This document shows, in pieces, positions 16,049 to 54,599 of a stretch of 64,000 bases of DNA. The notes below the pieces were generated by a model. The model had not been told where the DNA came from. It did not search any database and worked only from the letters and a program-made list of their open reading frames with translations. A program made the position numbers and the translations under genes. Each line of letters starts with the position of its first letter. Within the stretch, counting starts at the first letter, position 1. The stretch is from an uncultured Lachnospiraceae bacterium (GTDB taxonomy: Bacteria; Bacillota; Clostridia; Lachnospirales; Lachnospiraceae), in assembly GCA_947589095.1 (NCBI GenBank), contig CANQBX010000010.1, positions 1-64,000 of the forward strand, in the 5' to 3' direction.

Positions 16049-16078
16049 GACAGATATAACAGTTTCGGAGGTTTTGTG

Positions 16079-28591: not shown

Positions 28592-30556
28592 ATGGGACCG
28601 AAATATATCGGAGAAATACATCCAAACTGCGATTATTTTCATGGGCAGATCCCTTACGCGAAGGGAGTACATTTGTATCAGGTATCGCGGGCGAACCGGG
28701 AGGAGCCGGAACTGGACGACGGCACCGGCCACACCTATAAGCACGCGCCTGACCTGTGCTGGTATGCGGGAAAATACTATATCCAGTATCTGACGAACCC
28801 GAAGGATGAGCATGGAGGAGCCGGAGTGTCGGTATTGGCATCTTCCGCGGACGGTTGCGAGTGGGGAGATTATCAGATCTCATTTCCGGAATACCGGATC
28901 CCGGCGTGCGAAGTGACGGACTATAAAGGTCTCCATCATGTGTTCGACGGTACGAAGCCGGCGTTCATGCACCAGAGGATGGCATTCTATCAGGCGAAAA
29001 ACGGCGTGATGCTGGTGCTGGGTTTCTACGGCTGGTCGCCGGAAATGTGGATGACCAACTGGGACAACTATGGTATCGGGCGGGTAGTACGCAGGCTTTA
29101 TCCGGACGGACATATGGGGGAGATTTTCTTTATCCGCGTGAACTGGCAGGGCGGGTGGAAGGAAGAGCAGCTTCTCTATCCGATCTATGAGGAGAGCGGG
29201 GACGAGCCGTTTAAAACCGCGTGCCGGGAACTTTTGAATAATCCGCTGGCGGTTCAGCAGTGGGCGGAGGAGAACGGGGATCAAGACCCGATGATCCGCA
29301 TCAAACATCCGGAGCGGGGGACGTATCAGGCGTTTTGCTGGTATCATCGTTCCGAAAAGGATGTGGTGGGCCTGTGGAAGCATTCCTTTGTGTCAGAGAG
29401 CCATGACGGCGGAGAAAGCTGGGAGACGCCGGTGAAATCGCCGAGCCTCGTCATGAGCGGGCAGAAGATATGGGGAGCGAATACATCGGACGGACGGTAC
29501 GCCCTGGTCTATGATCCGACGCTGGAGACCCAGCACCGTTTCCCGATGTGCGTTGTGACCTCGGACGACGGACTGCGTTTTGATCATATGCGGCTCGTCC
29601 ACGGAGAGGTGCCGCCGATCCGTTATGAGGGTTTCTGCAAGGATCTGGGTCCCCAGTATATGCGTGGGATCAGCGAGGGGAATCCCAGGCCGGACGGGGA
29701 ACTCTGCTTAACCTATTCCGTAAATAAAGAGGACATCTGGTTCGCCAGGATCCCGGTACCGGTGCTGGGAGGAACACAGTCGGCTGCAGAAAAGGTGCAG
29801 AGTGACTGTGCTGCGATACATTCTTCAATCGGTATCAATGAGATGAATGGAAACAGAACGGATATCTGTGAAAATGCTCCAGATGAAGCGGTGATTGAAA
29901 GCGACAGAGCGATCAGGGAGTCTTTCTTTGACGATACCATTCTTGACCGGTGGAACCTCTATCAGCCTTCCTGGTGCCGCATCGTCTGCCTGTCGGCGGG
30001 CCGTCTGCTCATGGAAGATCATGAGCCCTATGACTACGCCCGTCTGGCGCGGGTATTTGCACCGGCCAGAAGGATCCGTGTCACGCTGCGCCTGCGTATC
30101 CTGGCCCTTGCGGACGGTAAGTCTCTGCAGATCGAACTGTGCAGCGCGAAGCACCAGACCGCCGTCCGGATCCTGTTCCGCCCGGGCGGGAGGATCCGTC
30201 ACCGCACCGTATGCGAACTGGATCTTGGAAAGGAACACTGGCGGGAAGGAGAGGAGATCGAACTCGCTGTTGAGGCGGACTGCAGAAGTTTTTCCTATAC
30301 GGTGACGGTCAGAAAGCCCGGTGAAAATGCCGGTGCAGTGCCGGACAGCCCGAAGACAGCTGTTGAGAAGCGCCGTTTCCCATTCATGGCGGCCGTGAAT
30401 GAAATTGCCGAACTATCCCTGCGGACCGGCGAGCCCCGGTATCTGGCGGATGTGGAGAGAAATCCGGACGGCCTGCCGAAAGAACCGCTTGTGGGCGGAA
30501 TGCTGAAAGAAGGAGCGCAGATAGAGCTTCTTGGGATATGCGCAGAGTGTGAATAA
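28592..30556 (+). CDS. Asp-box (BNR/sialidase-like) beta-propeller protein with C-terminal beta-sandwich
   Basis: A 654-residue protein without signal peptide. Residues 1-390 look like a five- or six-bladed propeller of the sialidase/GH43-like type: GHTYKHAPDLCWYAGKYYI, an Asp-box SHDGGESWETP near residue 270, and VVTSDDGLRF. The C-terminal 215 residues form a lectin-like beta-sandwich after a low-complexity linker of about 45 residues. No complete sialidase arginine triad can be assigned by eye. It may be a glycosidase of an uncharacterised family or a binding protein. AAAGGAG precedes the ATG, but a terminator stands right before it. It lies just upstream of the sugar-uptake operon. Confidence 0.7.
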   Translation: MGPKYIGEIHPNCDYFHGQIPYAKGVHLYQVSRANREEPELDDGTGHTYKHAPDLCWYAGKYYIQYLTNPKDEHGGAGVSVLASSADGCEWGDYQISFPEYRIPACEVTDYKGLHHVFDGTKPAFMHQRMAFYQAKNGVMLVLGFYGWSPEMWMTNWDNYGIGRVVRRLYPDGHMGEIFFIRVNWQGGWKEEQLLYPIYEESGDEPFKTACRELLNNPLAVQQWAEENGDQDPMIRIKHPERGTYQAFCWYHRSEKDVVGLWKHSFVSESHDGGESWETPVKSPSLVMSGQKIWGANTSDGRYALVYDPTLETQHRFPMCVVTSDDGLRFDHMRLVHGEVPPIRYEGFCKDLGPQYMRGISEGNPRPDGELCLTYSVNKEDIWFARIPVPVLGGTQSAAEKVQSDCAAIHSSIGINEMNGNRTDICENAPDEAVIESDRAIRESFFDDTILDRWNLYQPSWCRIVCLSAGRLLMEDHEPYDYARLARVFAPARRIRVTLRLRILALADGKSLQIELCSAKHQTAVRILFRPGGRIRHRTVCELDLGKEHWREGEEIELAVEADCRSFSYTVTVRKPGENAGAVPDSPKTAVEKRRFPFMAAVNEIAELSLRTGEPRYLADVERNPDGLPKEPLVGGMLKEGAQIELLGICAECE

Positions 30557-30817: not shown

Positions 30818-30847
30818 TTGACAAATTGTTCAATTCCGTTATATATT
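30818..30847 (+). promoter_or_regulatory. Sigma-A promoter of the sugar-uptake operon
   Basis: A perfect TTGACA (30818-30823) and TATATT (30842-30847) are 18 bp apart in an A/T-rich region. The remainder of the 30557-30955 gap holds no gene; its first 250 bases show nothing I can assign. Confidence 0.75.
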
Positions 30848-30955: not shown

Positions 30956-32530
30956 ATGAGAAAGTCAATGAAGAAGCTTTGCGCTGTAGCACTTACAGCA
31001 GCAATGGCCGGAAGCCTTGTCGCCTGCGGCGGCGGTGGCGGCACCACATCTACAACTGCGGCTCCGGCGGAGACCCAGGCTGCGCAGACTACGGCGGCAG
31101 CGGAGACCACAGCAGCGGCAGCCGGTGAAGAGACCACGGCAGCGGCGGCTGAGGAGACAGCAGCACCCGAAGAAACTTACGACTTCGGGGGGGCGACCGT
31201 ACGTGTAAGCGGCGGTATCTTCGGTGACCTGAACGAAGAGAACAGCGCGAATGCAAGCTATGTCACCAAGTGGGATATGGCGCATCAGGTTGAAGAGAAG
31301 TACAACATCAAGTTTGAGTATACCAAGCTTGAAGGCGACGATGGTTATACCACCATGGACGCCATTCTGGCCGGCATCACCAATGGTGAGGCATATGCCG
31401 ACATCTTCTGCCAGGGCGATGATATCGTCGTGGGTCTGAGAGATTATCTTGCTGATATCACAGATACGGTTGATGAGCTGCAGATCGGTTCTATCTATAA
31501 GGAAGCCGGTACATGGGCGGGCCATACATATGGCTGGACCTATGACAACATGGGCAGCGTTTACGTTATGGCCTACAGCCGTGACTATCTTGATTCCATC
31601 GGTATGGATACGACGCCGACCGATATGTTCGAGCAGGGCAAGTGGAGTTATGATGACTGCATCGAGTATCTGACTGAACTTAAGAGCAAGCTTCCGGATG
31701 GAACCTATCCGATCAGCGTACATCCCAACCACTGGGTTGCCATGGCTCCGGCAGCCAACGGCGTTGTTTCCGTTGATTCCGACGGCAACATTCATCTGGC
31801 CGATGAGCCGTATGCTTCCTCTCTGGAGTTTTATAAGCAGCTGCTTCAGTTAGGCCTTGCGGCTCCGTTTACTGGCCTTGAGATCGATGCGGAGTCCGGC
31901 GCCATCGGCGCTGACATGCCTTACGGCACGAACGGTCTGAGCGCAGTTGGTAATCCCGGAACGCATGTTATGACCATGGTCGAGGCTTGGCAGATGGAAG
32001 GTCTGCAGAGCAGCATCGGCGACTGGGGCATTGTTCCGTGGCCGTGGGATCCGAATTATGTGACCTGCAGCGGCGATTACACGACTCTGAGCGATACCTA
32101 TAAGACGGCTCAGGCTATCTGGACCGACGTTCTGGTTCCGAAGGCAGAGTATCGTGCGGCAGGCGCGAAGGACATTCCGGACATCGTTCTGCACAAGATC
32201 GCACAGGATTTCGTTGATCTGACCAGCGCTGACGGCGCGGCGGCGAGACTGAAGATGTATGAAGCCGAGAAGAACGGCGAAACCTACGTGAACATGGGAT
32301 ATACTCCCGGCACAGCAGGTGCGTTCAGCACCGAGCAGGATGTTGCGATTTATGACTGGCTGCATTCCAGAGTTGTCTGCGATTGGGGTCATTCCATGAA
32401 TTCCAACTCGATCGTCAGAGTGAACCGTAACGCTATGTACGTAATCGGCAATGGCGATGACGCCAGATCCAGCGGCGAGTCCTACAAGGCGGCCGGCGAT
32501 CAGGCTATGAAGGATCAGGGATTCAAATAA
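30956..32530 (+). CDS. Extracellular solute-binding lipoprotein (sugar ABC transporter)
   Basis: A 524-residue lipoprotein. The signal peptide ends in the lipobox LVAC (lipid-modified C24) and is followed by a 45-residue Gly/Thr/Ala/Glu-rich tether. The rest resembles large family-1 sugar-binding proteins: an N-terminal lobe with a DIFCQGDDIVVGLRDYLADIT segment, a GWTYDNMGSVYVMAYSRDYL hinge region and an Asn/Trp/Tyr-rich pocket. It captures the substrate outside the membrane for the permeases downstream. The ATG at 30956 has AAGGAGG seven bases upstream. It is the first gene after the TTGACA promoter, and a stable hairpin follows it, which may raise its level over the membrane proteins, as is common for binding proteins. 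Confidence 0.9.
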   Translation: MRKSMKKLCAVALTAAMAGSLVACGGGGGTTSTTAAPAETQAAQTTAAAETTAAAAGEETTAAAAEETAAPEETYDFGGATVRVSGGIFGDLNEENSANASYVTKWDMAHQVEEKYNIKFEYTKLEGDDGYTTMDAILAGITNGEAYADIFCQGDDIVVGLRDYLADITDTVDELQIGSIYKEAGTWAGHTYGWTYDNMGSVYVMAYSRDYLDSIGMDTTPTDMFEQGKWSYDDCIEYLTELKSKLPDGTYPISVHPNHWVAMAPAANGVVSVDSDGNIHLADEPYASSLEFYKQLLQLGLAAPFTGLEIDAESGAIGADMPYGTNGLSAVGNPGTHVMTMVEAWQMEGLQSSIGDWGIVPWPWDPNYVTCSGDYTTLSDTYKTAQAIWTDVLVPKAEYRAAGAKDIPDIVLHKIAQDFVDLTSADGAAARLKMYEAEKNGETYVNMGYTPGTAGAFSTEQDVAIYDWLHSRVVCDWGHSMNSNSIVRVNRNAMYVIGNGDDARSSGESYKAAGDQAMKDQGFK

Positions 32531-32577
32531 ATCTCTGAAGAGACACGCAGTACTGCATCTTTAATCTTAATCTCAAT

Positions 32578-32618
32578 ATGTGGCCACGGAATCTACGGCA
32601 GTAGGGCCGTGGCCGCAT
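32578..32618 (+). promoter_or_regulatory. Intercistronic hairpin after the binding-protein gene
   Basis: A 12-bp stem (32578-32589 with 32607-32618, one G-U) encloses a second small stem CTAC/GTAG in its loop. No T tract follows, so it is more likely an mRNA-stabilising or partial-termination element than a full terminator. Confidence 0.6.
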
Positions 32619-32645
32619 GTTATTTGAAAAGAAAGGGTTAATGGC

Positions 32646-35591
32646 GTGAAAAAGAAAAAACAGCGTGCTCGCATTCGAAACATATGCATCCTGGTCGCAT
32701 TGATCGTAGTCGCTGTGGTCGCCTTTAGGCTGGCGTCCAGCGATGAATACGCACAGACCCGTGAGGATGTGCTGGCGAAGAATTTGAGCTATGAAGATTC
32801 AGACGCGGTCACTTATGATGACTATCTGGCCCTCCATCAGGGGGCGTATCCGTCCGGTTCGGCTGGGACGGTCGCGCTGAATGCTTCTGATTATTCCGAG
32901 ACGGACATGGAAGGCCTTACAGAGACGAACGGCGTTCTGTGGACGCAGGATGAAGGCTCCGTTACATATGCGTTTGATGTGCCGGAGGCCGGACTGTATC
33001 ACATCCGTCTCACCTATTATCCGGATACGACCGGAACACAGAGCATACTTCGCGATGTATATGTGAATGGCGAGATTCCATTTGATGATTGTGAAGATAT
33101 GAGCATCTCCCGGCTCTGGGTAGATGACAATAAGAACTGGCTTATGAACACTTCCGGCAACCAGGCGGCGCCTACGCAGGTGCAGGATGCAGGACCGGGA
33201 GTTGCTTATCTTGAGTCGGACGACTGCGATACGATTGGAAGTTATATGTTCTATCTTAATCAGGGAAGCAATACGCTGACTTTCACTTCCAAGCAGGCTC
33301 CTCTGGGACTTTCCGAGATCGCTCTGGTGCCGGCATCGGCGGTTCCGACTTATAACGATTATATCGCGTCCTATCAGGGCAGCGCTTCCCAGGTGGCAAG
33401 CAGCGAGATCCCGGACGGCGCGTTTATTGTTCAGGCCGAAGACGCGTCCTTAAAGTCCAGTTCTTCCCTTTCGGCCAATAACGACCGTACTTCTGTAGCG
33501 ACGCAGCCGTATCATCCCTCCTATATCATTTACAATACGATAGGCGGAGAGAACTGGGCGAGCGCGGGCCAGCGGATCAGCTGGACGGTGCAGGCCCCCA
33601 AGGCAGGTCTCTATAAGATCGGCGTCCGTTTCAAACAGTATCTGAACCGCGGTTTCTATTCCGCGCGTTATCTGACCGTGAACGGAGAACTTCCGTTTGA
33701 GGAAGCGGCGCAGATCGATTTCTATTACGGTCCCGACTGGCAGATCAGTTACCTGGGCGGCGACGCGGGCGACTACTATTTCTATCTGAATGAAGGCGCG
33801 AACACCATCGCCATGACGGCTACTCTCGGCGATCTGGCGGATGCGGTCGATATGGCCAGCTTAAGCGTTGACAACCTGAATATTCTTTACCGTGAACTGA
33901 CGGCGGTTACCGGAACGGATCCGGACGAGTACCGTGATTACCAGATTACGACTTACGTTCCTGGTATGACGGAAGTACTCGAGAAGGAATACACCAGACT
34001 GAACGCTGTTGTGGAAGCCTTCGGCGAGAGTATGGATTCCGCCAACAAGACTTCCCCTGTCGTTGATATGATGAACGCGATGGTCAAGCTGATCAAGAAG
34101 CCGGACGACGTGGCCAAGTATCTGGGAGATTTCAATGACGCACTGTCTGCTCTGGCTGAGTGGCTTACCAGCGTGAACAACCTGCCGCTGGAACTGGATT
34201 ACCTGATGGTGACCGGCGACGGCTATAAGCTTCCCGCTGCGGAAGGCGGATTCTTCGCCGGACTGGCCCATAACTTTAACGCGTTTATCGGATCCTTTAC
34301 CAACGACTTCCAGGTACATTCCGAAGGCGAGTCCAAGGATAAGAAGACGCTGACCGTATGGGTGGCGGTAGACGCGAGGGCGCAGTACGATATCATCCAG
34401 AAGATGGTGCTCGCCAGCTTTGCTGATTCTCCGTACAATGTGAATATCAGCATGGTCGGCGGCGATACGGTTCTTCCCGCGACGGTCGCAGGATCCGGTC
34501 CCGACGTTGTGCTTCAGTCCAGCTACAGCACGCCTGTGAACTTCGCGTACCGCAACGCTGCGCTGGATCTGACCCAGTTTGCTGATTTTGAGGATATTTT
34601 CAAACGGTTCCCGGCGGATACCAGGGCGTTCCTTCAGTATGAAGGCGGCGTCTACGGACTTCCGGATCAGGTCACGTTCCCGGTGACGATCTACCGGAAG
34701 GATATTCTGGAGGCCAAGGGACTGGAGGTTCCGGAGACATGGGATGACCTGATCGCTATCATTCCTTATCTGGAAGCCGACAATATGACCGTTTATCTGG
34801 GCAGCAACGAATATACGACGCTGGGCGGCGGCACCAGTTCCACGACGGTGCCTGTGAACAGCATCTTCCTTTCCATGCTGTATCAGAACGGCTATGAACT
34901 TTATAATAAGGATTTCACCGCCACGAATCTGGATCAGGTGGAACTGATGGAGGTCTTCAAGTACTGGACCGAGTATTATACGAAGCAGGGCCTGAATTAC
35001 TCCATCAACTTCGTGACCAGGTTCCGTACCGGCGAAGTTCCGCTGGCGGTTGTTGATTACAACAGCTATGTAAACCAGCTGAACGTGTCTGCTCCGGAGA
35101 TCGCCGGCAAGTGGTCCATCGCCAAGATGCCGGGCACCGTGAAGGCGGACGGCACCGTGGATCACACCGCGGCCAGCATGATCAGTACCTGCTTCATCGT
35201 TTCCACAACGGTGGAGAAGGACGGCATGAAGGATGAGGCGTGGGATTTCCTGAAGTGGTGGACAGACGCAGAGACGCAGGCTAATTATTCTACCGAACTG
35301 AAGGCTAAGAACGGTGAAGCTTCCGAGTTCCCGGTGGCCAATGTCGAGGCGATCGCCAACGGAAGCCTGAACGAGGAGTTCAAGCAGGTTGTTCTTTCCC
35401 TGCTCGATGACCTCCGCGCGGAGCCCCAGGTTCCCGGCGGATATATCACAGGCCGTGTGCTCCGCAACGCGTTTACCACAGTTGTAACCGATAACGTGGA
35501 TCCGGTCGATACGCTTTATATCCAGCTTGACGAGATCAACGCCGAGATTGACAGCAAGCGTACCGAGTTCGGTCTGAACACAGCAGAATAG
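32646..35591 (+). CDS. Membrane-anchored fusion: carbohydrate-binding-like modules plus solute-binding protein
   Basis: A 981-residue protein with one N-terminal membrane helix (residues 10-28) after a Lys/Arg-rich start, and no lipobox. Two similar jelly-roll modules follow, roughly residues 75-235 and 255-420. Both have the AGLYxIxxxxxxY..VNGEIPF/VNGELPF pattern of CBM6/35-like domains. A helical spacer (about 430-560) leads into a complete family-1 sugar-binding protein (about 565-970; KKTLTVWVAVDARAQYD, GVYGLPDQVTFPVTIYRKDIL, WDFLKWWTD). It should sit on the outer face of the membrane and both grip a polymer or long oligosaccharide and deliver it to a permease. GTG start with AAAGGG eight bases upstream. 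It is the second binding protein of the operon. Confidence 0.85.
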   Translation: MKKKKQRARIRNICILVALIVVAVVAFRLASSDEYAQTREDVLAKNLSYEDSDAVTYDDYLALHQGAYPSGSAGTVALNASDYSETDMEGLTETNGVLWTQDEGSVTYAFDVPEAGLYHIRLTYYPDTTGTQSILRDVYVNGEIPFDDCEDMSISRLWVDDNKNWLMNTSGNQAAPTQVQDAGPGVAYLESDDCDTIGSYMFYLNQGSNTLTFTSKQAPLGLSEIALVPASAVPTYNDYIASYQGSASQVASSEIPDGAFIVQAEDASLKSSSSLSANNDRTSVATQPYHPSYIIYNTIGGENWASAGQRISWTVQAPKAGLYKIGVRFKQYLNRGFYSARYLTVNGELPFEEAAQIDFYYGPDWQISYLGGDAGDYYFYLNEGANTIAMTATLGDLADAVDMASLSVDNLNILYRELTAVTGTDPDEYRDYQITTYVPGMTEVLEKEYTRLNAVVEAFGESMDSANKTSPVVDMMNAMVKLIKKPDDVAKYLGDFNDALSALAEWLTSVNNLPLELDYLMVTGDGYKLPAAEGGFFAGLAHNFNAFIGSFTNDFQVHSEGESKDKKTLTVWVAVDARAQYDIIQKMVLASFADSPYNVNISMVGGDTVLPATVAGSGPDVVLQSSYSTPVNFAYRNAALDLTQFADFEDIFKRFPADTRAFLQYEGGVYGLPDQVTFPVTIYRKDILEAKGLEVPETWDDLIAIIPYLEADNMTVYLGSNEYTTLGGGTSSTTVPVNSIFLSMLYQNGYELYNKDFTATNLDQVELMEVFKYWTEYYTKQGLNYSINFVTRFRTGEVPLAVVDYNSYVNQLNVSAPEIAGKWSIAKMPGTVKADGTVDHTAASMISTCFIVSTTVEKDGMKDEAWDFLKWWTDAETQANYSTELKAKNGEASEFPVANVEAIANGSLNEEFKQVVLSLLDDLRAEPQVPGGYITGRVLRNAFTTVVTDNVDPVDTLYIQLDEINAEIDSKRTEFGLNTAE

Positions 35592-35601
35592 GAGGGGAGT
35601 C

Positions 35602-36531
35602 ATGGCTGCGAATAAGATTTCTATGAAGAGAAGGGCGCAACTGACCCTCAGGGATATGAAGCGCAGTGTTCCGCTTTATATCATGATTGCCCCCTTTATG
35701 ATCCTGTTTTTTGTATTCGTAGTATATCCGGTCCTTACCGCGATCTGGTACAGCTTTACGGACTTCAACGTCCTGGAGAAAGCCAATTTTATCGGACTGA
35801 ATAACTACAAGAAACTGTTCCTGGACGACAGCATTTTCATCACTGCCATCAAAAATACGCTGATCATCGCGGTGATCGTAGGCCCCGGCGGATATATCAT
35901 GTCCTTCCTGCTGGCCTGGATGATCAATGAGCTGCCCCACAAGCTGGGCGTGGTTCTGACCGTGATCTTCTACGCGCCGAGTATGGCCGGCAGCGCGGTG
36001 CTTTCCGTCTTCCAGCAGATCTTCTCCAACGACAGCAACGGCTATCTGAACGCGTTTTTGCAGAACCTCGGAATTATCAGCGAGCCGATCCTCTGGCTTT
36101 CCGATTCCGACTATGTCATGGTCGTTGTGGTGCTGGCTTCCCTGTGGACCAGCATGGGCGTAGGCTTCCTGTCCTTCGTCGCCGGCATTAAGGGCGTTGA
36201 CGACGCCCAGTATGAGGCGGGCGCCATCGACGGGATCAAGAACCGCTGGCAGGAGCTGTGGTTCATCACGCTTCCCAACATGAAGCCCCAGCTGATGTTC
36301 GGCGCCGTCATGGCGATCACCAGCTCCCTCTCCGTAGGAAGCGTCGGCGACGGCCTTGTCGGTTTCCCGAGCCCCAACTACGCGACACATACCATTTATA
36401 ACCATCTGATGGACTATGGTTCCATACGTATGGAGATGGGGTACGCGTCCGCGATCGCTTTTGTCCTGTTCCTGCTGATGATCGTTGCGAACATGCTGAT
36501 TCAGAAGCTGCTTAGCAAGGTTGGAACCTGA
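35602..36531 (+). CDS. Sugar ABC transporter permease, MalF type (pair 1)
   Basis: A 309-residue inner-membrane protein with about six helices (first at residues 28-50). The EAA loop that contacts the ATPase is EAGAIDGIKNRWQELWFITLP near residue 205. It partners with the MalG-type permease that follows after 21 bp. GGAGGGGAG precedes the ATG, and the gene begins 10 bp after the fusion protein, so all are in one transcript. No ATPase gene is nearby. Confidence 0.93.
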   Translation: MAANKISMKRRAQLTLRDMKRSVPLYIMIAPFMILFFVFVVYPVLTAIWYSFTDFNVLEKANFIGLNNYKKLFLDDSIFITAIKNTLIIAVIVGPGGYIMSFLLAWMINELPHKLGVVLTVIFYAPSMAGSAVLSVFQQIFSNDSNGYLNAFLQNLGIISEPILWLSDSDYVMVVVVLASLWTSMGVGFLSFVAGIKGVDDAQYEAGAIDGIKNRWQELWFITLPNMKPQLMFGAVMAITSSLSVGSVGDGLVGFPSPNYATHTIYNHLMDYGSIRMEMGYASAIAFVLFLLMIVANMLIQKLLSKVGT

Positions 36532-36552
36532 TGGGTGAAAGGAGAAGTGACT

Positions 36553-37482
36553 ATGGATATCATTACTAAGATCAGAGCGAATTATCTGAAAAAGAAGAAA
36601 TCCAAGCTTGATTTTGCCCCATCAGTCAAGAAGTCGGAGAGAAGTTTCTGGGGGAATGTGCTCCTGGGCCTGTTCCTTTTCGCCATGGGCTTCGCGTTCT
36701 TCTTCCCGGTCATTTTCATGATCAGCCAGTCTCTGAAGCCGATGAACGAGATGTTCATTTTCCCGCCGAGGATCCTGGTCCATAATCCGACGATGAACAA
36801 CTACCGCGACTTTGTGAACGTCCTGGCCAATACGGTCGTCCCGGTAACCAGATCCCTTTATAACTCCCTGTTCGTGGTTGTAGTCGGATCGGTGGGACAT
36901 ATCGTCATCGCGTCCCTGTGCGCGTTCCCGCTGGCCAAGTTCCGTTTCCCGGGCTCCAAGTTCTTCAATCAGCTGATCGTGTATTCGCTGATGTTCAACG
37001 GAGCGGTTACGATGATCCCCAACTTCTTAACCATTGCCCGTCTGGGCTTTCTGGATACGCAGTGGGCTATCATTATCCCGGGTTTCGCGTCCACGCTGGG
37101 TCTGTACCTGATGAGAAACTTCATGGAGCAGATCCCGGACAGCCTGACTGAGGCGGCTCAGATCGACGGAGCGGGATATTTCCGCATCCATTTTACGATC
37201 GTTATGCCGGTGGTGAAACCGGCGCTGGTTACGGCATTTATCATGGTGTTCCAGAGCTTCTGGACCAACACGGGCGCCAGCTTCATCTATGCGGAAGCTG
37301 AGAAAGGCTTCGCTTATGTAGTAGGCCAGCTGGCCAGCGGCAACGTCGCCGGCGTAGGCGCTTCCTACAAGGGCATCGCATCCGCGTCCTCGGTCATCAT
37401 GTTTGCCGTACCGCTTATCGTGTTCCTGATTATGCAGAACAACGTAGTATCTACGATGGCAACATCCGGCATGAAAGAATAA
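36553..37482 (+). CDS. Sugar ABC transporter permease, MalG type (pair 1)
   Basis: A 309-residue inner-membrane protein with about six helices and the EAA loop EAAQIDGAGYFRIHFTIVMP near residue 200. The N terminus is Lys-rich and cytoplasmic. I chose the ATG at 36553 because AAAGGAG (36538-36544) stands eight bases upstream; a GTG at 36535 is in frame but precedes that site. Together with the previous gene it makes the first complete permease pair of the operon. Confidence 0.93.
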   Translation: MDIITKIRANYLKKKKSKLDFAPSVKKSERSFWGNVLLGLFLFAMGFAFFFPVIFMISQSLKPMNEMFIFPPRILVHNPTMNNYRDFVNVLANTVVPVTRSLYNSLFVVVVGSVGHIVIASLCAFPLAKFRFPGSKFFNQLIVYSLMFNGAVTMIPNFLTIARLGFLDTQWAIIIPGFASTLGLYLMRNFMEQIPDSLTEAAQIDGAGYFRIHFTIVMPVVKPALVTAFIMVFQSFWTNTGASFIYAEAEKGFAYVVGQLASGNVAGVGASYKGIASASSVIMFAVPLIVFLIMQNNVVSTMATSGMKE

Positions 37483-37492
37483 GAGGTGGCGT

Positions 37493-39568
37493 ATGAAGAT
37501 ATCTGTTAAGATCCGGAGAAAGTGCGCAGGCGTACTTGCTCTCGTATTATGTGCCATCCTTGGATTTGGCACGGTGTCCTATGCGGCAGATACTTATTCT
37601 TATGACATCTGGGGCAATCTCGTAGAGGCTCCGGTTGCGTATGAATTGGAACAGACGATTTATGGCGCTGACCTGGGACTCAGTTCCATGGCATCAGCAT
37701 CTGCCGTGTTCTATCGGAATGACAAGCTGTATCTTGCACTGAACGGCTATATCGTCATCACCGATAAGAACTTTGAGAATGTAAGCTATATTACAGAATA
37801 CACAAGAGAAGACGGTACAAAGAGTGCGGTCACGGCTCCCACAGGCATTTTTGTCACGGAAGATGAGCATATCTACATCTGTGAGAAGGATAAAGGGGAG
37901 ATCATCGAGTTCGATGAGAACGGACAGTATGTGCGCGCCATCGGCGATCCGCACTGCATCGGTCTGACGACGACCTACCGTCCCAAACGGCTTGTCGTGG
38001 ACAACGTGGGACGTATCTATGTACTGGTTGAGAACTGCTACGAAGGTTTCGCAGAGCTGGATCCGGAAGGCAACTTCAACCGCTATGTCGGTGCGACGGA
38101 AGTAACTTATTCGGCATTGGATCTGTTCTGGAGACAGTTCTCCACGGAAGAGCAGCTGGCCAGAAGCGAACTGTGGCTGCCGACTTCCTACAGCGACCTG
38201 GCTATCGATCAGGATGGGTTCATCTTCGCAAGCGTTGCGGATTCCACGACGGAGCATCCGATCAAGAAGCTGAACTCCTCCGGTAAGGACGTTATGCAGG
38301 AGCATGATTTCGTCAATCCGCCGATCGGCGATTATGAAGGTGAGAAATCCATTTCGAACCTGGTCAGTATCGCATGTGCGGATGACGGAAGATTCGCGGT
38401 TCTGGATTCCAACTACTCCAGGATCTTCGTCTACAGCGCGGACGGCTATCTGCTGTACGAACTGGGCGGAAGCGGCAACAAGCAGGGACTTTTAAGTTCC
38501 CCGTCTACCTTCTGCTTCATGGACAATAAGATCGTGGTAGTCGACATCGTATTCCAGACACTGGAGGTCTTTGCGCCTACCACTTACGGCGCTCTGATCA
38601 ATTCCGCGCTGGAGGCCCAGTCCAAATATGATTATGAGACGGCCGCCGGTTACTGGGAGCAGGTGCTGGACATCAACAATAACTTCTATTACGCGAACCT
38701 TGGCCTGGGCAAATACCAGATGCGTACGGGAGAGTATGACAAGGCGCTTGACAACTTCTACAAAGGCGCCGATCAGTCTTACTATTCCAGCGCTTATGAG
38801 CAGGTAAGCGGCGTATGGATGGATGAGCATTTCGGCATCATCGTCGGCGTCATCGTCGCGATCCTCGTTCTGCTCGTCGCCTGGATGCTTTACAAGAAGT
38901 TCCGTAAGGGCGAGCCCAAGGATACGAAGCTTCGGAGAGCGTGGAAGAAGTTCAAGTTCACGGTATTCGAGTGGCCGGGATATGTGCTTTCCAGTCCGTT
39001 CAAGGCCTTCGACGACGTGAAGTATTATGACGACGGTTCGCTGGCATTCTCCATCATCGTCATTATCCTGTACGGATGGGTCATGCTGGTCAAGTACCGC
39101 TACACGGGCTTCCTTGTAAGCTTCGTGGATATCGAACATGTGAACGTGCCGATGATCGTGGGCAGCGCGATCCTTCCCTATGTGGCCTTTATCGCGGGCA
39201 ACTGGGCGGTGGGCGTGCTCATGTCCGGCAAAGGCAAAGCAGTCCATATCACCAAGGTCGTCGGATATTCCCTGTATCCCGCGCTGTGGCTGAACCTGCT
39301 GGGGACGCTGCTCTCGAACTTCGTAAGCCTGAATGAGGCCGCTCTGGTAAGCGCTTTGTTCATCCTGGCCTACGTGCTGTTCTTCTTCTATATGTTCGTG
39401 GGCACCCTGATGGTGAACCAGTACACATTTACGAAGAACGTGGGAACGCTTCTGTTGTCGGCTGTGGCTTTGCTGATCATCTGCTTTGTGGCAATGCTGT
39501 TTGCGACACTCCTCGGACAGTTTGTAAACGACTGGGTACAGATTGTCAGAGAGTTCATGATGCTGTAG
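37493..39568 (+). CDS. NHL propeller, TPR and Yip1-domain membrane protein
   Basis: A 691-residue multidomain protein. A cleavable signal peptide (to about residue 32, VSYAADT) is followed by an NHL-type beta-propeller (about 50-360; repeats such as GIFVTEDEHIYICEKDKGEIIEF in pieces, RLVVDNVGRIYVL). Two TPR-like helical repeats come next (about 375-430; AAGYWEQVLDINNNFYYANLGLG, then YDKALDNFYKGA), then one membrane helix (about 445-465), a basic cytoplasmic stretch, and a Yip1-type domain with about five helices at the C terminus. The propeller and TPR should lie outside the cell and the Yip1 part in the membrane. It lies between the two permease pairs with 10-16 bp gaps. A scaffolding or sensing role is inferred from position only. 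Confidence 0.8.
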   Translation: MKISVKIRRKCAGVLALVLCAILGFGTVSYAADTYSYDIWGNLVEAPVAYELEQTIYGADLGLSSMASASAVFYRNDKLYLALNGYIVITDKNFENVSYITEYTREDGTKSAVTAPTGIFVTEDEHIYICEKDKGEIIEFDENGQYVRAIGDPHCIGLTTTYRPKRLVVDNVGRIYVLVENCYEGFAELDPEGNFNRYVGATEVTYSALDLFWRQFSTEEQLARSELWLPTSYSDLAIDQDGFIFASVADSTTEHPIKKLNSSGKDVMQEHDFVNPPIGDYEGEKSISNLVSIACADDGRFAVLDSNYSRIFVYSADGYLLYELGGSGNKQGLLSSPSTFCFMDNKIVVVDIVFQTLEVFAPTTYGALINSALEAQSKYDYETAAGYWEQVLDINNNFYYANLGLGKYQMRTGEYDKALDNFYKGADQSYYSSAYEQVSGVWMDEHFGIIVGVIVAILVLLVAWMLYKKFRKGEPKDTKLRRAWKKFKFTVFEWPGYVLSSPFKAFDDVKYYDDGSLAFSIIVIILYGWVMLVKYRYTGFLVSFVDIEHVNVPMIVGSAILPYVAFIAGNWAVGVLMSGKGKAVHITKVVGYSLYPALWLNLLGTLLSNFVSLNEAALVSALFILAYVLFFFYMFVGTLMVNQYTFTKNVGTLLLSAVALLIICFVAMLFATLLGQFVNDWVQIVREFMML

Positions 39569-39584
39569 AAAGGAGGCATAGAGG

Positions 39585-42164
39585 ATGAGAAAATTCAGAG
39601 TTTTATCGTATGGTTTAATATCCGTTCTTTGCCTTACCCTTCTTAGCGGCTGCGGTTCCGGAGAAGAAGCAGTCACCACCACCACGGAGGAGACAGAAAG
39701 CTACTGGGAGACGCAGACCTATGACAATGTGAGCGGAGCCGATTTCGTGAAGGTGGGAGAGAGCGCTAAGATGCAGCTGCTCTTAAACCCCGCTACCGGC
39801 ACCGTCCGCTGGCTGGAAACTGCCACCGGTATTTTCCAGGACACAAATATGGCGAAGGATGAAGGAATGGCGGGCGCCCTGTCGAACGCGGAGCAGTCTG
39901 ACCTGATCGTCCGGTATTTCTCCGGCTCCAAGAACGCCAACAAGCTTTACTGGAGCACCAGTACCTACGACTCCTACAGTATGTGCGCGAGCCTTGGCCA
40001 GCTGTCCTATCAGCTTATGGATAACGGCGTGCGCATCGTCTACACGCTGGGCGACGACAGCGTTACATACAAGAACTTCCCTTACCGTATCTCGGATGAG
40101 AGGATGCAGGAATATGTGATACAGTACTTAAGCAGTTCCCAGCAGGAGATCTTAAAGAGCCGTTATACTCAGCTGTCTTCCGGCGACTGGATCCGCGGAT
40201 TTGGCGGCGGCGAAGGCGGTGCGCAGAACAGACTGGGTACTCTGGCCATGAAGGAAATCTACAATATCTTCTATGAGGTTGGCCAGTATACGGATGAACT
40301 GCTGTACGAGGATCTGGCTACCTGGGAGGTTGCTGCCGATGAATATCCCAGCAACTTAAAGATCCGTATCCCGATTGAGTACTATCTGGACGGCGACGAG
40401 CTGATCGTGAATCTGGATACGTCGAAGATCGAGACCGGCAAGGACAACCCGATCAACAACATTCAGCTGCTGCCGTATTTCCTGAATTCCAGCTCGACGA
40501 TCGATGCGGAAGAAGGATATATGTTCATTCCGGACGGAAGCGGAGCCCTGATTTATCTGGACAGCACAAAGAACAAAGAATACCATTATCAGGCTCAGTA
40601 CTTCGGCGGTGATAAACTGGTTGGTTCCAAGACTTACAGCGGTCTGAATAACCTGATGCAGCTGCCGGTACTTGGCATGAAGACTTCCGAGCACACCATT
40701 TTCGGAGTGATTGAGGAAGGCGCTGAGGTCGCGACTCTTGATGCGTATGTGAGCGGTACGGATAATTCCGAGCCCTTCAGCAAGATGAAGCTGAGCTTCG
40801 AGATCCAGACCCAGCAGATCATGTCTTCCGGTGCCAAGAGCAGTTCCGGCGACTTCAATCTGTACAAGGCATCCACCGATGTCTATGATGAGAACATCAC
40901 TCTTCGTTATTTCTGGCTGGGCAAGGATGCCGGATATGTGCAGATGGCCCAGTGCTACGCGGATTATCTTGAAGGGAAAGGCGTGCTGACCGAGAAGACG
41001 AAGGAAGCGGATCCGCCGTTCTTTGTGGAATTCCTCGGAACGACAGACAAGACCCAGTATATGCTGGGTATCCCCTACGACGGCACGCAGGCGCTGACGA
41101 CCTTTAAGCAGGCGAAGCAGATCCTGGAGGATGTGACTGCTCAGGGCGTCAAGAACGTGAAGCTGATCTACAGCGGTATCGTCAATGGAGGTATCAACCA
41201 GCGGTCCCTGGCTAATAAGGTCAAGTTTGCACCGGGCTTGGGCGGAAGCAGTGATTTCAATGCCCTGAAGACCTATGCGGATTCCATCGGTACGATGATC
41301 TATCCGAACCTGCTTCTGCAGACGGCGGATACGAAGGCGAAGCTTTCCAACGAGCTGGTAGCCTGGAACATCATCAATGAGAAGGCGCAGATATACAAGT
41401 TCGATCATGTCAAGCATCAGATTGACGAGGAGAACAAGTTCCCGGTTTATATTATTAACCCGAACGCGCTGGCTTCTTACCTTCTGAATGCGAAGGGCTC
41501 CTATTCCAGCCTGACCGGATTGAGCAACATGGCGTCGGAAGATCTGTATACCTTTATCAGTACCAATTATGGCGAAGGTGAGGTGTCTCCGTCTACAGGT
41601 GCGGATATGATAAAGGATGCTGTTTCGCAGTTTGCGGACGGTATGTCCCTGATGCTGAGCAATCCGATCGTGGACGCTTACGCTTATGCCGATTATATCA
41701 TGGATGTTCCGGTTGAGAACAGCGGCATGAGAGTGCTTGACGCGTCTGTACCCTTCATGGGCATGGTGCTTGACGGACATCTCCAGTATTCTGCGGAGAG
41801 CTCCAACAGGGAGAGCACCGATGTATTCCTGAACATCATGCATGCGATCGAGAGCAACGCGCAGCCGAAGTTCACTCTGATGTACGAGAACAGTTCCCTG
41901 CTGACCGGCACGGAGCAGGAGCACTATTTCGCGGTCGATTACTCTTACTGGAAGGACCAGATCGGATTCTATTACAACGAGTACCGGAACTTCTATGATA
42001 AGACGAAAGACGCGAAGATCGTGGACCATGAGATCGTAGACCGCAACGACAAGCTCCGCGTGGTGACGTATTCCAACGGAGTGAAGGCGTACTTCAACTA
42101 CAGCGATCTTGATGAAACACTTGACGGCGTCACGGTTCCGGCATTCTCGTATCTGGTACAGTAA
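39585..42164 (+). CDS. DUF5696-like surface lipoprotein, possible cryptic glycosidase
   Basis: An 859-residue lipoprotein with lipobox LSGC (C23) and a short Thr/Glu-rich tether. Residues 60-440 appear all-beta, resembling a galactose-mutarotase-like sandwich. Residues 470-740 alternate strands and helices as in a TIM barrel (GVKNVKLIYSGIVNGGINQ, DSIGTMIYPNLLLQTAD, KFPVYIINPN). A final beta domain follows. This is how I remember DUF5696 proteins, which travel with this type of ABC operon in Firmicutes. The layout would suit a surface glycoside hydrolase, but no catalytic pair can be assigned by eye. GGAGG precedes the ATG. It directly precedes the second permease pair. Confidence 0.72.
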   Translation: MRKFRVLSYGLISVLCLTLLSGCGSGEEAVTTTTEETESYWETQTYDNVSGADFVKVGESAKMQLLLNPATGTVRWLETATGIFQDTNMAKDEGMAGALSNAEQSDLIVRYFSGSKNANKLYWSTSTYDSYSMCASLGQLSYQLMDNGVRIVYTLGDDSVTYKNFPYRISDERMQEYVIQYLSSSQQEILKSRYTQLSSGDWIRGFGGGEGGAQNRLGTLAMKEIYNIFYEVGQYTDELLYEDLATWEVAADEYPSNLKIRIPIEYYLDGDELIVNLDTSKIETGKDNPINNIQLLPYFLNSSSTIDAEEGYMFIPDGSGALIYLDSTKNKEYHYQAQYFGGDKLVGSKTYSGLNNLMQLPVLGMKTSEHTIFGVIEEGAEVATLDAYVSGTDNSEPFSKMKLSFEIQTQQIMSSGAKSSSGDFNLYKASTDVYDENITLRYFWLGKDAGYVQMAQCYADYLEGKGVLTEKTKEADPPFFVEFLGTTDKTQYMLGIPYDGTQALTTFKQAKQILEDVTAQGVKNVKLIYSGIVNGGINQRSLANKVKFAPGLGGSSDFNALKTYADSIGTMIYPNLLLQTADTKAKLSNELVAWNIINEKAQIYKFDHVKHQIDEENKFPVYIINPNALASYLLNAKGSYSSLTGLSNMASEDLYTFISTNYGEGEVSPSTGADMIKDAVSQFADGMSLMLSNPIVDAYAYADYIMDVPVENSGMRVLDASVPFMGMVLDGHLQYSAESSNRESTDVFLNIMHAIESNAQPKFTLMYENSSLLTGTEQEHYFAVDYSYWKDQIGFYYNEYRNFYDKTKDAKIVDHEIVDRNDKLRVVTYSNGVKAYFNYSDLDETLDGVTVPAFSYLVQ

Positions 42165-42177
42165 AGGAGGAGTTAAG

Positions 42178-43131
42178 ATGAGTAAAGAAAAGAAAAAATC
42201 CGGTAATGCGTCGGCTCTCTCCTGGTATAAGAAAATGGATTTCTCCAAGAAGACTGCGATGTGGGGCGTCATTTTCCTGCTTCCGTGGCTGTTTGGTCTG
42301 ATCTTCTTCTTCTTAAGGCCCATGGTGAATACCCTGTGGTACTCGCTGTGCAGTATGCAGCTGACAAACGGTAAGTTTTCAGGATCCTTTATCGGAGCCG
42401 AGAACTATAAGTGGGTTCTTGGAGTTGATACGAACTTTAACCGGATGTTTGTTGAGGCCTTTACCAACATGGTCAAGGAAGTACCGTTCCAGATCTTCCT
42501 GGGCCTGTTCATCGCGATCCTGCTGAACGGCGAGTATAAGGGGAGAGGATTCTTCCGTGCGATCTTCGTGATCCCGATCATCCTGGCCACGGGCGTGGCT
42601 TCCCCGACACTGTCCTCCGCTGAGGCACAGTTTACAACGGAGACCGCAGAGGCAGTTATGAACATGGAATGGCTGGAGCAGCTGGTCATCAATTCCGGTA
42701 TTCCGCAGCAGCTGACTACGCTGTTAGTGGGCTACGTAGAGAATATCTTCGATGTGGTGACAAAATGCGGCGTACAGGTGCTTCTGTTCCTGGCCGGTCT
42801 GCAGGCGATTTCTCCGTCCCTCTATGAGGTGGCGAAGATGGAAGGCTGCACCCAGTTCGAGACTTTCTGTAAGATCACGCTGCCCATGGTCTCCCCGACC
42901 ATTCTGGTGTGCCTGGTCTACAGCATTGCGGAGTCCTTCGCGAACGCGCAGGTAGCTTATGGTGATTCAACGATTGCGTTCTCAAGCTACATCCGCAGTA
43001 TTACGTTCAACGGCAACGCGGCCTATTACGGCTACGGCGCAGCCATGAGCTTCATCTACTTCGCAGGAACGCTGGCAGCAATCGGCATCATCTGCGGTAT
43101 CGTGTCGAAGGGGGTGTTCTACTATGACTAA
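42178..43131 (+). CDS. Sugar ABC transporter permease, MalF type (pair 2)
   Basis: A 317-residue inner-membrane protein with about six helices. The first is WGVIFLLPWLFGLIFFFL near residue 30, and the EAA-type loop is EVAKMEGCTQFETFCKITLP near residue 230. A 40-residue insertion between helices (SSAEAQFTTETAEAVMNMEWLEQ, in two parts) makes it unlike the pair-1 permease. AAAGGAGG is seven bases before the ATG at 42178. It overlaps the next gene by eight bases. Confidence 0.92.
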   Translation: MSKEKKKSGNASALSWYKKMDFSKKTAMWGVIFLLPWLFGLIFFFLRPMVNTLWYSLCSMQLTNGKFSGSFIGAENYKWVLGVDTNFNRMFVEAFTNMVKEVPFQIFLGLFIAILLNGEYKGRGFFRAIFVIPIILATGVASPTLSSAEAQFTTETAEAVMNMEWLEQLVINSGIPQQLTTLLVGYVENIFDVVTKCGVQVLLFLAGLQAISPSLYEVAKMEGCTQFETFCKITLPMVSPTILVCLVYSIAESFANAQVAYGDSTIAFSSYIRSITFNGNAAYYGYGAAMSFIYFAGTLAAIGIICGIVSKGVFYYD

Positions 43132-44200
43132 AAAGGGAATGACCCGACAGGAACGGCGCGCGAAAGCGGAGACAACGGCCGGCATCAGCTTCTGGGTAGA
43201 CTTAAAGAAAGGCCGACTGAGCAAGTATTACATCCAGAAGATCATCCGGAACTTTATCATGTCGCTCTTCCGGTATGTGATCCTGATCTGCCTGGGCTTC
43301 ATCGTCATTAAGCCGCTCTGGTCGCTTCTGAAGAGCGCGATCACAGCGCCGGCTATGCTGGGCGACAAATCGGTCATGTGGATCCCGCAGCATATTTCCA
43401 GGATCTTCATAGACATGTCCATGTCCCAGAGCCTGATGAATTACTGGAAGAGTCTGGCGTATACCCTGCCGGTGACGGTGGCGCTGACAGCCCTGCAGGT
43501 AATCTCCGCGGGACTTGCGGCTTACGCGTTCGCGAGACTGAAGTTCAAGGGAAGCGGCATCCTGTTCTTCTTCGTGATCCTGACCATCGTTGTGCCGAGC
43601 GACGCGATCATGCTGGCGCAGTACGCTGCGTTCCGTAATTTCGATATCTTCGGAATTATCGGTTTGATCAACGGAACCGGTTCAGGCATCAACCTGATCG
43701 GCAAACCGGTGTCTCTGTATATCCTGGCCGGAACCGGTATGGGCCTTAAGAGCGGTCTGTACATTTACTTCCTCCGCCAGGCGGTCAGGGGTCTTCCGAT
43801 CTCTGTCGAGGAGGCGGCGTTCGTGGACGGCGCAGGTTTCCTGCGTACCTTCTTCACGATCGTTATCCCGAGTATGTCCGGTTCCATCCTGACGGTATCG
43901 GTTCTGAGCTTCTTGTGGAACTACACGGATACGTACTACACAAGCCTTCTGAACCCGAATACCAGCCATCTGGCCTACAACCTGTCCTCCCTGTCCGGCA
44001 ACATCCGCTGGTACATCACTACGGCGGCGCAGACAAATGAGACATGGCTGACGACCATCGATGCGACTAACCCGTTCGTACAGCAGGCTATGATCTCTGC
44101 CTGCTCCCTGCTGACGGTGCTGCCGCTGCTGATCATGTACGCGTTCGTACAGAAGAGATTCGTACAGGGCGCGGCCCGAAGCGGTCTGGGCGGCGATTGA
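43124..44200 (+). CDS. Sugar ABC transporter permease, MalG type (pair 2)
   Basis: A 358-residue inner-membrane protein, longer than usual because of a basic 45-residue N-terminal tail and extra loop sequence. The EAA loop is EEAAFVDGAGFLRTFFTIVIP near residue 230. Its start lies within the end of the previous gene, so translation is coupled. It closes the operon. No MsmX-type ATPase is present, so all four permeases must share one encoded elsewhere. Confidence 0.92.
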   Translation: MTKKGMTRQERRAKAETTAGISFWVDLKKGRLSKYYIQKIIRNFIMSLFRYVILICLGFIVIKPLWSLLKSAITAPAMLGDKSVMWIPQHISRIFIDMSMSQSLMNYWKSLAYTLPVTVALTALQVISAGLAAYAFARLKFKGSGILFFFVILTIVVPSDAIMLAQYAAFRNFDIFGIIGLINGTGSGINLIGKPVSLYILAGTGMGLKSGLYIYFLRQAVRGLPISVEEAAFVDGAGFLRTFFTIVIPSMSGSILTVSVLSFLWNYTDTYYTSLLNPNTSHLAYNLSSLSGNIRWYITTAAQTNETWLTTIDATNPFVQQAMISACSLLTVLPLLIMYAFVQKRFVQGAARSGLGGD

Positions 44201-44383: not shown

Positions 44384-45673
44384 ATGCAGGACTGGTTTAA
44401 GAAGGCAAAATTAGGAATATTCATCCACTACGGGATCTACGCCGTGAAAGGCGTGTCGGAGTCATGGTCCTTCTATCACGGCTCCATTTCTTATGAGGAC
44501 TATATGAAGCAGCTGGATGGGTTCACGGCGTCAAAATTTGACGCGGATAAATGGGCCGATCTGTTCAAAAAGAGCGGTGCGCGCTACAGCGTTCTGACGA
44601 GCAAGCATCATGACGGTGTGGCGCTGTTTGATACAAAATACAGTGATCTGAGCGTTGTGAAGAAGTCTCCGGCGGGCCGGGATATTCTGGGCGAATATAT
44701 CGCGGCCGTCCGCAGGGCGGGGCTTAAGGTGGGAGTTTACTATTCCCTTCTGGACTGGTCTCATCCGGATTACGCTTCGGTCTACCCGGACTGGCGGGTG
44801 CCGGAAGATCTTAACACGGTGAACGGCTACAGTTCGCCGAAGGACGGAACGCAGGATAAGGAGGCGTGGCAGAGGTTTCTGCAGTTTGACCGGAACCAGC
44901 TTAAGGAGATCCTGTCGAACTACGGCAAAGTGGATCTTCTGTGGTTTGACGGAGACTGGGAGCGGAACGCCGAACAGTGGGGACTGCCGGAGTTTAAGGA
45001 TTATCTGAAGAGTTTCAATGAAGACCTGATCATCAACAACCGGTTCGCCGGCTACGGCGATTATCTGACGCCGGAGCAGGGGATCCCGGTGAACCGTCCG
45101 AAGGGGGTATGGGAGTTCTGTACGACGATCAATTCCTCCTGGGGCTATCAGCACAGGGACAACCACTACAAGTCCCTGCGGCAGATCATTCATATGTTCT
45201 GTGACTGCTTAAGCATGGGCGGAAATATGCTTCTCGATATCGGGCCTATGGAGGACGGAACCGTGGATCCCAGGCAGGAGGCGGTGCTTCTGGGCCTTGG
45301 CGAGTGGATCCGTGCCAATGAGGAAGCGGTCTATGAGTCCGCGGCAGGGATTCCGGCCAATTATTATGGGGACGGAAGCGTCCTGTCGGAGGACGGGCAG
45401 ACGCTGTATCTGTTCGTTCATAACCGTCCGGCGGAGGCGCTCTGCGTCAAAGGACTTAAGAACCGGGTGAAGAGGGCGGCTATCCTTCATTCCGGAAAGG
45501 AACTGCGGATGGACGTTCACGGCGGCGCGCCTTGGAACGGGATCCCCGGTATTTTGTGGATCTATATGACCGAAAAGGATTGCGCGGAGATGACAACTGT
45601 GGTAAAACTGGAACTGGACGGTCCGGTGCGGCTGTATGACGGCGGCGGGGCGGTCATTACGGATAACCAGTGA
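44384..45673 (+). CDS. Alpha-L-fucosidase, glycoside hydrolase family 29 (copy 2)
   Basis: A 429-residue enzyme. The GH29 barrel opens with KLGIFIHYGIYAVKGVSESW and contains TSKHHDGVALFD, the probable nucleophile D189 in LLWFDGDWE, and the TPEQGIPVNRPKGVWEFCTTINSSWGY segment (in two parts) usual for the main GH29 group. The C-terminal beta-sandwich is short. No signal peptide. The barrel opening and active-site surroundings resemble broad-specificity fucosidases more than copy 1 does. The ATG is five bases after AGGAGG, which is partly locked in a hairpin. The GH3 gene follows after 196 bp; that gap contains two copies of GCTGCAGAGGCAA (45736, 45765). Confidence 0.94.
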   Translation: MQDWFKKAKLGIFIHYGIYAVKGVSESWSFYHGSISYEDYMKQLDGFTASKFDADKWADLFKKSGARYSVLTSKHHDGVALFDTKYSDLSVVKKSPAGRDILGEYIAAVRRAGLKVGVYYSLLDWSHPDYASVYPDWRVPEDLNTVNGYSSPKDGTQDKEAWQRFLQFDRNQLKEILSNYGKVDLLWFDGDWERNAEQWGLPEFKDYLKSFNEDLIINNRFAGYGDYLTPEQGIPVNRPKGVWEFCTTINSSWGYQHRDNHYKSLRQIIHMFCDCLSMGGNMLLDIGPMEDGTVDPRQEAVLLGLGEWIRANEEAVYESAAGIPANYYGDGSVLSEDGQTLYLFVHNRPAEALCVKGLKNRVKRAAILHSGKELRMDVHGGAPWNGIPGILWIYMTEKDCAEMTTVVKLELDGPVRLYDGGGAVITDNQ

Positions 45674-48182: not shown

Positions 48183-48263
48183 ACGTTTATGTAAACCCCA
48201 CTGGAGAGATGTACGGATACAGTGCCGGATGAAATAATTACATATCAGGACGGAGAGAGAATT

Positions 48264-54598: not shown

Positions 54599-54599
54599 G

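Follow-up and report, generated by a model that had tools for sequence, protein, structure and literature searches.

A conserved gene module with two sugar permease pairs, an NHL-Yip1 protein and a DUF5696 protein in an uncultured Lachnospiraceae bacterium: a putative double importer

The operon and its proteins

The 64,000-nucleotide stretch of DNA analysed here (hereafter the window; positions 1 to 64,000 of contig CANQBX010000010.1, assembly GCA_947589095.1, from an uncultured Lachnospiraceae bacterium) contains a sugar-uptake operon that combines solute-binding proteins (SBPs), two permease pairs (A1/A2 and B1/B2), a membrane protein with NHL and Yip1-like parts, and a DUF5696 protein (Table 1). 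The seven genes described in an earlier note on this DNA are real, contiguous and all on the plus strand, with open reading frames (ORFs) spanning positions 30953-44200 in the ORF list, and no ATPase gene lies inside the seven-gene operon. SBP1 starts at ATG 30956, the start given in the note, and is preceded by AGGAGG; the likeliest start of permease B1 is ATG 42178 (AGGAGG upstream) and not TTG 42109, which yields a protein of 317 aa. The short gaps and overlaps also hold, the spacings from SBP2 through B2 being 10, 3, 10, 16, 13 (to ATG 42178) and -8 bases. A scan for promoter-like sites found 20 against 13.7 expected from shuffles, and the site upstream of SBP1 was the top scorer (11/12). 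The nearest relatives of the window's genome are uncultured Lachnospiraceae metagenome-assembled genomes labelled 'Lapin', presumably for rabbit, with DUF5696 proteins that are 82-99% identical.

All four permeases score above the Pfam cut-off for BPD_transp_1 and form two MetI-type pairs. The EAA loop is the docking site for the ATPase in known MetI-type importers, and its glycine is invariant in every alignment (63 sequences for A1, 62 for A2, 71 for B1, and 72 for B2). Since the A and B permeases in the window are just 23-25% identical, the pairs did not arise by recent duplication. SBP1 has distant Butyrivibrio relatives (26 and 19% identical) annotated as 'extracellular solute-binding protein', while SBP2 contains an SBP_bac_8 domain (Pfam, E 6e-21). 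The fold statements made here for the module proteins come from sequence profiles. SBP2 had been proposed to carry modules resembling carbohydrate-binding modules (CBMs) on a membrane anchor; the anchor is confirmed, and the modules are less certain, CBM_35 falling below the Pfam cut-off (E 0.009) with support from a profile match. Positions 282-404 of a profile built from 25 SBP2 proteins match cycloisomaltooligosaccharide glucanotransferase chains (E 3.6e-9 for the chain), in a region that we take to be the CBM35 of that enzyme, and positions 566-876 match sugar SBPs. The Yip1, NHL, and TPR matches of the window's NHL-Yip1 protein each lie below the Pfam cut-off, and the orthologous split genes of Butyrivibrio exceed it for Yip1 (50.4 bits) and NHL (50.1 bits); the NHL part has profile matches to NHL structures, and the TPR match is weak. 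Many relatives, e.g. Butyrivibrio, encode NHL and Yip1 separately, in genes for about 500 and 210 aa, and others have them fused, a pattern suggesting that the two parts work together.

The DUF5696 protein of the window scores 442.7 bits against its Pfam family, and a profile of 28 members matches GH129-related structures (5opq, 8rzg, 8rzk, 5wzn, and 5wzq; E 5e-11 to 4e-10). In the alignment to 5wzn, the Asp of a GYD motif (residue 330) stands opposite a variable DUF5696 residue. We take D330 to be the first catalytic Asp of NagBb, the GH129 alpha-N-acetylgalactosaminidase of Bifidobacterium bifidum, and D435 to be, in position and role, the second. In the column of the first Asp, two of 74 members have Asp and five have Glu, and the window protein has Asn, whereas the residue is kept in two controls, the NagBb-like L074 (E 2e-266 to 5wzn) and the GH129-like L075. 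Because the first catalytic Asp is mostly lost, DUF5696 is most likely, judging from these alignments, a non-catalytic glycan-binding protein. The notion that the module trims its cargo is accordingly disfavoured, both by this loss in a GH129 relative and by the flanking glycosidases, which have no signal peptide or membrane segment. The two control genes, which are of GH129 type with the first Asp, stand beside CUT1-like permeases and SBP-like genes, possibly a picture of an enzyme recruited into an importer operon before catalysis was lost. A review of GH129 names Trp398 and calcium (PMC8106489), and proteins of GH129 and CBM35 are reported from the exoproteome of a Paenibacillus exclusively on crystalline cellulose (PMC4867992).

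Table 1. Features of the module and of its surroundings in the window (GH, glycoside hydrolase family; TM, transmembrane segment).
Feature	Position	Strand	Details
SBP1, lipoprotein-type solute-binding protein	30956..32530	+	lipobox-like VAC near N-terminus; no Pfam match
SBP2	32646..35591	+	anchored by an N-terminal TM (residues 13-31), followed by CBM35-like stretch(es), a spacer and the SBP domain (609-883)
Permease A1, MalF/UgpA-like	35602..36531	+	conserved EAA loop
Permease A2, MalG/UgpE-like	36535..37482	+	conserved EAA loop
NHL-Yip1 protein	37493..39568	+	signal peptide, NHL propeller, TPR-like part, TM 448-466, Yip1-like membrane domain
DUF5696 protein	39585..42164	+	lipobox-like N-terminus; GH129/GH101 relative without first GH129 catalytic Asp
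Permease B1, MalF-like	42178..43131	+	conserved EAA loop
Permease B2, MalG-like	43124..44200	+	conserved EAA loop
Promoter-like TTGACA-18-TATATT upstream of SBP1	30818..30847	+	consensus match only
BT_1020-like beta-propeller with sialidase-like CBM	28592..30556	+	no signal peptide
GH29 alpha-L-fucosidase, probable co-functional enzyme	44384..45673	+	no signal peptide
GH3	45846..48182	+	best NCBIfam model xylan beta-xylosidase Xyl3A, 778.5 bits (cut-off 1250); no signal peptide
GH2, beta-mannosidase-like	48222..50936	+	no signal peptide
Upstream set: GH38, GH2 beta-galactosidase, 392 aa protein, GH20, GH18, transglutaminase-like, GH29	5397..20595	+	

Conservation of the module across genomes

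Gene order was compared across 74 loci, which remain from 76 after L074 and L075 are set aside as GH129-like. The family scan located 44 full-length or nearly full-length DUF5696 places (39 analysed, window included, and 5 left out), the phylum scan located 55 outside the window's genome (30 analysed), and three loci (L006, L009, and L010) and two plasmids (L011 and L012) were added to make the 74; two 6 kb contigs (L007 and L008) were excluded from the gene-order count. The 74 loci represent 73 distinct places, L006 and L073 being one contig, and include near-copies that the window's genome shares with its sister. ORFs were taken as longest frames, and some starts and overlaps are artefacts (e.g., in the GC-rich L144). 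NHL-DUF5696-B1-B2 is contiguous on one strand in all 74 loci, and SBP2-A1-A2 stands immediately before this NHL half in 60, often with SBP1 present too. The A half follows the B half (swapped) in 4 loci and is not adjacent to it in 6; the remaining loci are either ended by a contig edge (3) or have a broken A2 (1). In L153 the permease A2 region is in two pieces, and an antisense ORF lies within it (6607-7935); from its motif this ORF is presumably an IS110-type transposase. The order is maintained from Lachnospiraceae to Paenibacillus, and given this recurrence the arrangement is far beyond chance. The window's genome alone contains five copies of the module; their DUF5696 proteins differ by 68-80%, a divergence that marks the copies as paralogues of long standing, all retained as complete sets.

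The earlier note had named a contrary pattern, namely permease pairs apart with their own ATPase and unlinked Yip1 and DUF5696 genes, and this pattern is found in part: the pairs stand apart in 6/74 loci, with NHL/Yip1, DUF5696 and the B pair linked in every locus. Five genomes harbour these six B-only loci, and all carry SBP2 elsewhere; no MsmK-type ATPase is labelled in the six stretches. One locus counted as B-only, L151 (G461:C2), has an SBP2 gene one ORF further on and may be nearly linked.

The co-occurrence of the Yip1-NHL, DUF5696, and CBM-binding-protein genes, proposed as a check, is borne out genome by genome. Among 120 family genomes, one and the same set of 27 carries full-length DUF5696 together with SBP2 (at E <= 1e-60) and NHL-Yip1 (at E <= 1e-20), and all three are found by strong matches in 37 of 398 phylum genomes, with at most 3 DUF5696 candidates scored per genome in the phylum scan. 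A DUF5696 match at E <= 0.001 is present in 48 family genomes, 21 of which have partial matches only and lie outside the 27; G016, in which DUF5696 is split over two contigs, is among the 27. The 14 control genomes gave two weak matches, neither above the cut-off. Outside the 37 phylum genomes, SBP2 is partial in 1 and represented by an SBP-domain-only match in 5, and the NHL profile finds a single fragment (in G362) and six weak matches to NHL alone. Every separately tested DUF5696 genome (13/13) carries SBP2, linked or unlinked. Permease trees were built for 23 of the 74 loci, with 3 or 4 other permeases added; in them each of A1, A2, B1, and B2 forms one clade (support 100/98 to 100/100), and the subgroups largely match among the four. 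Gene order and permease trees thus uphold the view that the seven genes evolve together as a unit, in which the two permease pairs have long been distinct.

Energy supply, cargo and competing readings

The four EAA loops had been read as requiring an ATPase that the operon does not encode. The local absence stands, yet it is usual for Gram-positive CUT1 oligosaccharide importers that share the ATPase MsmK, and a missing local ATPase is ordinary for this importer type. Deletion of msmK in Caldicellulosiruptor bescii is reported to abolish growth on oligo- and polysaccharides (PMC8579813), and the sharing of MsmK is established, with further support elsewhere (PMC12838199). The window's genome encodes a MalK-type ATPase (L146; G000:C1:99747-100856) with OB_MalK and TOBE_2 over the cut-off; no match to the A or B permease profiles was found in the 13 kb around it, so this gene is stand-alone. 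A second ATPase of the genome (L147) lies within an SBP-permease-permease operon, and a third (L149) is near an SBP and a permease gene. The L146 ATPase is matched at E <= 1e-80 in 61/63 module genomes, its stand-alone status having been checked for the window's genome alone, and the two module genomes without an MsmK-type match are drafts of about 210 contigs. In one Paenibacillus locus a UgpC-type ATPase gene adjoins the module, and the pairs labelled 'ATP' in L055 and L143 are 229-330 aa long, shorter than MsmK.

The module is surrounded by glycan-degrading enzymes (Table 1), and a hydropathy scan of the flanking GH enzymes and the upstream set found no signal peptide or TM in any member. 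These predicted cytosolic enzymes fit the removal of fucose, galactose, N-acetylglucosamine, alpha-mannose, xylose, and beta-mannose, and because of this fit the cargo in the window is rather probably N-glycan. The breakdown of plant complex N-glycans has been described for Bacteroides, where GH92 takes part (PMC9522356); the window's set would cover most of the same linkages, with GH38 replacing GH92. The narrower assignment to plant-type N-glycans falls short of even chances, since it depends on a single GH3 assignment below its cut-off. The downstream order GH29-GH3-GH2 recurs in two relatives (L006 and L009). A survey of 156 neighbouring ORFs across loci (top 25 families for each half) gives, among the families listed, GH43 (10), GH3 (7), GH26 (7), arabinofuranosidase C-domains (6), and GH10 (at least 3); the neighbours are thus mostly hemicellulose enzymes, and the window's set differs. 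Seven neighbour proteins match CBM65_1 (best E 1e-95) within the initial batch of 78 ORFs, which runs from L012 to L076.

Other genes around the module were noted in passing. A protein of 961 aa with a transglutaminase core (E 5e-21) and no signal peptide is encoded at 16076-18961, inside the GH cluster. Cytosolic peptide:N-glycanases have a transglutaminase fold, and the protein might act on glycopeptides; its candidacy as a peptide:N-glycanase is no more than a remark, its sole PDB match being weak (E 0.0044). The glycan gene set is interrupted at 20847-25935 by an AAA/DUF4143 protein and two exporter-like membrane proteins with ABC ATPase domains, and directly downstream, at 51184-56167, lies an ABC transporter of the branched-chain amino-acid type, which has two ATPases of its own and no relation to the sugar module.

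The explanation that we place somewhat ahead, with a little over half of our confidence, is a conserved double CUT1 importer powered by MsmK, with a non-cutting DUF5696 and, in the window, likely N-glycan cargo; the binding roles, the scaffold role, the cooperation of the two pairs, and the cargo are what we infer. In this scheme, the lipoprotein SBP1 and the membrane-anchored SBP2, with its CBM35-like arms, would capture oligosaccharides at the cell surface and pass them to the heterodimers formed by permeases A1/A2 and B1/B2, each energised in trans by the stand-alone MsmK-type ATPase of the genome. DUF5696, derived from GH129, would bind glycans without cutting them, and the NHL-TPR-Yip1 protein, with its propeller outside and its helices in the membrane, would join DUF5696 to pair B. 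Large branched oligosaccharides, probably complex N-glycans and perhaps of plant type in the case of the window, could then enter without further surface trimming and be dismantled in the cytosol. A bolder version, in which both pairs, an NHL-TPR-Yip1 scaffold, the CBM-armed and lipoprotein SBPs, and a non-cutting, enzyme-derived docking DUF5696 form one physical machine that takes up large branched glycans (whole plant N-glycans in the window's case) in one coordinated step, is doubtful; if true, it would be a composite ABC importer class in Bacillota not described as such.

Several observations weigh against the favoured explanation or parts of it. The halves are separable, as the swapped and B-only loci demonstrate, and full-length SBP2 occurs without DUF5696 in 2/398 phylum genomes (G223 and G273). 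The distance matrices of the seven proteins, compared over 56 loci with no background control, do agree with the trees, with correlations of 0.84-0.94, but shared ancestry inflates these values; the agreement of nearest neighbours is mixed, with one shared by all seven proteins in 13/56 loci, two in 19, and three or more in 24, and the case for co-inheritance therefore leans on the trees. Regarding the cargo, the GH18 of the window is closest to chitinases and an N-acetylglucosaminidase and not to an N-glycan endoglycosidase, its GH38 has no equivalog model over the cut-off, and GH85, sought in the genome as a releasing enzyme, was not found (other types were not searched). The same 2/398 genomes, and the 10/74 loci with halves apart or swapped, speak for two independent CUT1 importers of different specificities that are merely co-transcribed, with NHL-Yip1 and DUF5696 serving B only, and this is the published interpretation for C. 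bescii (PMC8579813). Unrelated co-transcribed importers should shuffle, whereas the order persists across the span from Lachnospiraceae to Paenibacillus, and genomes with unlinked halves show the co-occurrence as well (SBP2 in 13/13 DUF5696 genomes tested), which leaves two separate importers an unlikely, if serious, alternative.

Two further alternatives concern the NHL-DUF5696 part of the module. DUF5696 could be catalytically active at the surface, trimming the cargo as a glycosidase or transglycosylase through residues other than the GH129 pair, in line with its clear GH129 homology and with the near-invariant E756 (71/74) and D343 (68/74). The second GH129 position leaves room for other chemistry, a point against a non-cutting DUF5696, as it is Asp in 34/74 members, including the window, by the alignment based on L075 and in 1/74 by that based on L074. 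No Asp or Glu column is invariant over the 28 aligned members, however, the column of the first GH129 Asp is degraded as described above, and trimming at the surface would be partly redundant with the cytosolic exo-enzyme set, so that an active enzyme appears improbable. A role of the NHL-Yip1/DUF5696/B half as a cargo sensor and not as an importer would suit a propeller joined to a membrane domain, which recalls a receptor layout, and the regulators that neighbour certain loci (LacI type; in Butyrivibrio, a histidine kinase with a response regulator), but both B permeases keep full EAA loops, and we regard a sensor as very improbable. On balance, the earlier note saw a real system, and its interpretation is partly supported.

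Comparison with known systems

The conserved double importer is in print in pieces and is not recognised as a unit in the literature searched, where it figures as separate ABC transporters with further genes left unexplained. The search, which covered few subscription journals, found neither DUF5696 by name nor such a set described as one module. The closest published counterpart is the xylan degradation locus (XDL) of C. bescii, an operon of xloEFG-X-GH129-axoFGE and xyn genes that is raised on xylan and cellulose and is read as two CUT1 transporters (XloEFG and AxoFGE) with seven CAZymes, three of them secreted (PMC8579813). Its order xloEFG-X-GH129-axoFGE corresponds to SBP2-A1-A2-NHL/Yip1-DUF5696-B1-B2-SBP, its CUT1 transporters likewise have no ATPase of their own and need MsmK, and the gene at the DUF5696 position is labelled plainly GH129 (PMC8579813). 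X would be the NHL-Yip1 gene judging from gene order and not from its own sequence. The two systems differ in that the cargo of the XDL is taken to be xylan oligosaccharides, whereas the window's flanking enzymes fit N-glycans; the XDL also includes secreted xylanases, so that its cargo is cut outside first (PMC8579813), a point against the favoured explanation.

The XDL operator, which is bound by XynR (PMC12285236), occurs exactly (20/20 bases) once each upstream of SBP2 in 3 of the 7 genomes of group g258, and is absent within 2 mismatches in the other 4; a reversed-operator control gave none. Within the same group, L137 has the gene order of the C. bescii XDL. A regulator gene precedes SBP2 in L153, and from its N-terminal sequence we take it to be of LacI type. 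A LacI-type gene arrangement is described for genomes without the XDL operator (PMC12285236). Going by gene order and operator, g258 carries the XDL as its module, and Caldicellulosiruptorales is a very probable identity for the group. Seen as a unit, the module offers testable roles for DUF5696 and bacterial Yip1 in a genetically tractable thermophile.

NgtS-P1-P2 of Streptococcus pneumoniae binds N-glycan fragments and is proposed to import them, with MsmK suggested as its ATPase (PMC5215778). It resembles the module as an ABC importer without a local ATPase and differs in having one SBP and one permease pair, with no NHL-Yip1 or DUF5696 described in the accessible text of that study (PMC5215778). 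A link between SBP1 and NgtS was considered and dropped, to the detriment of the N-glycan assignment, as phmmer against solved structures returned one chance hit and no NgtS; likewise, NgtS does not appear by name among the best 60 of 111 matches of the SBP2 family. NagBb is related to DUF5696 through a profile match of the catalytic region (E about 1e-10), and DUF5696 differs in that 72/74 members are without the first catalytic Asp and in that its gene belongs to an importer operon and its N-terminus is lipobox-like or hydrophobic. At E values up to 0.1, none of the seven proteins has a SusC-, SusD- or TonB-type Pfam match, and the likeness to the Sus-type systems of Bacteroidota is one of analogy: both would capture large glycans at the surface and then import them, the seven-gene module by an ATP-driven ABC design. 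Recognised as one unit, the module suggests how Gram-positive gut bacteria may import branched glycans too large for ordinary importers.

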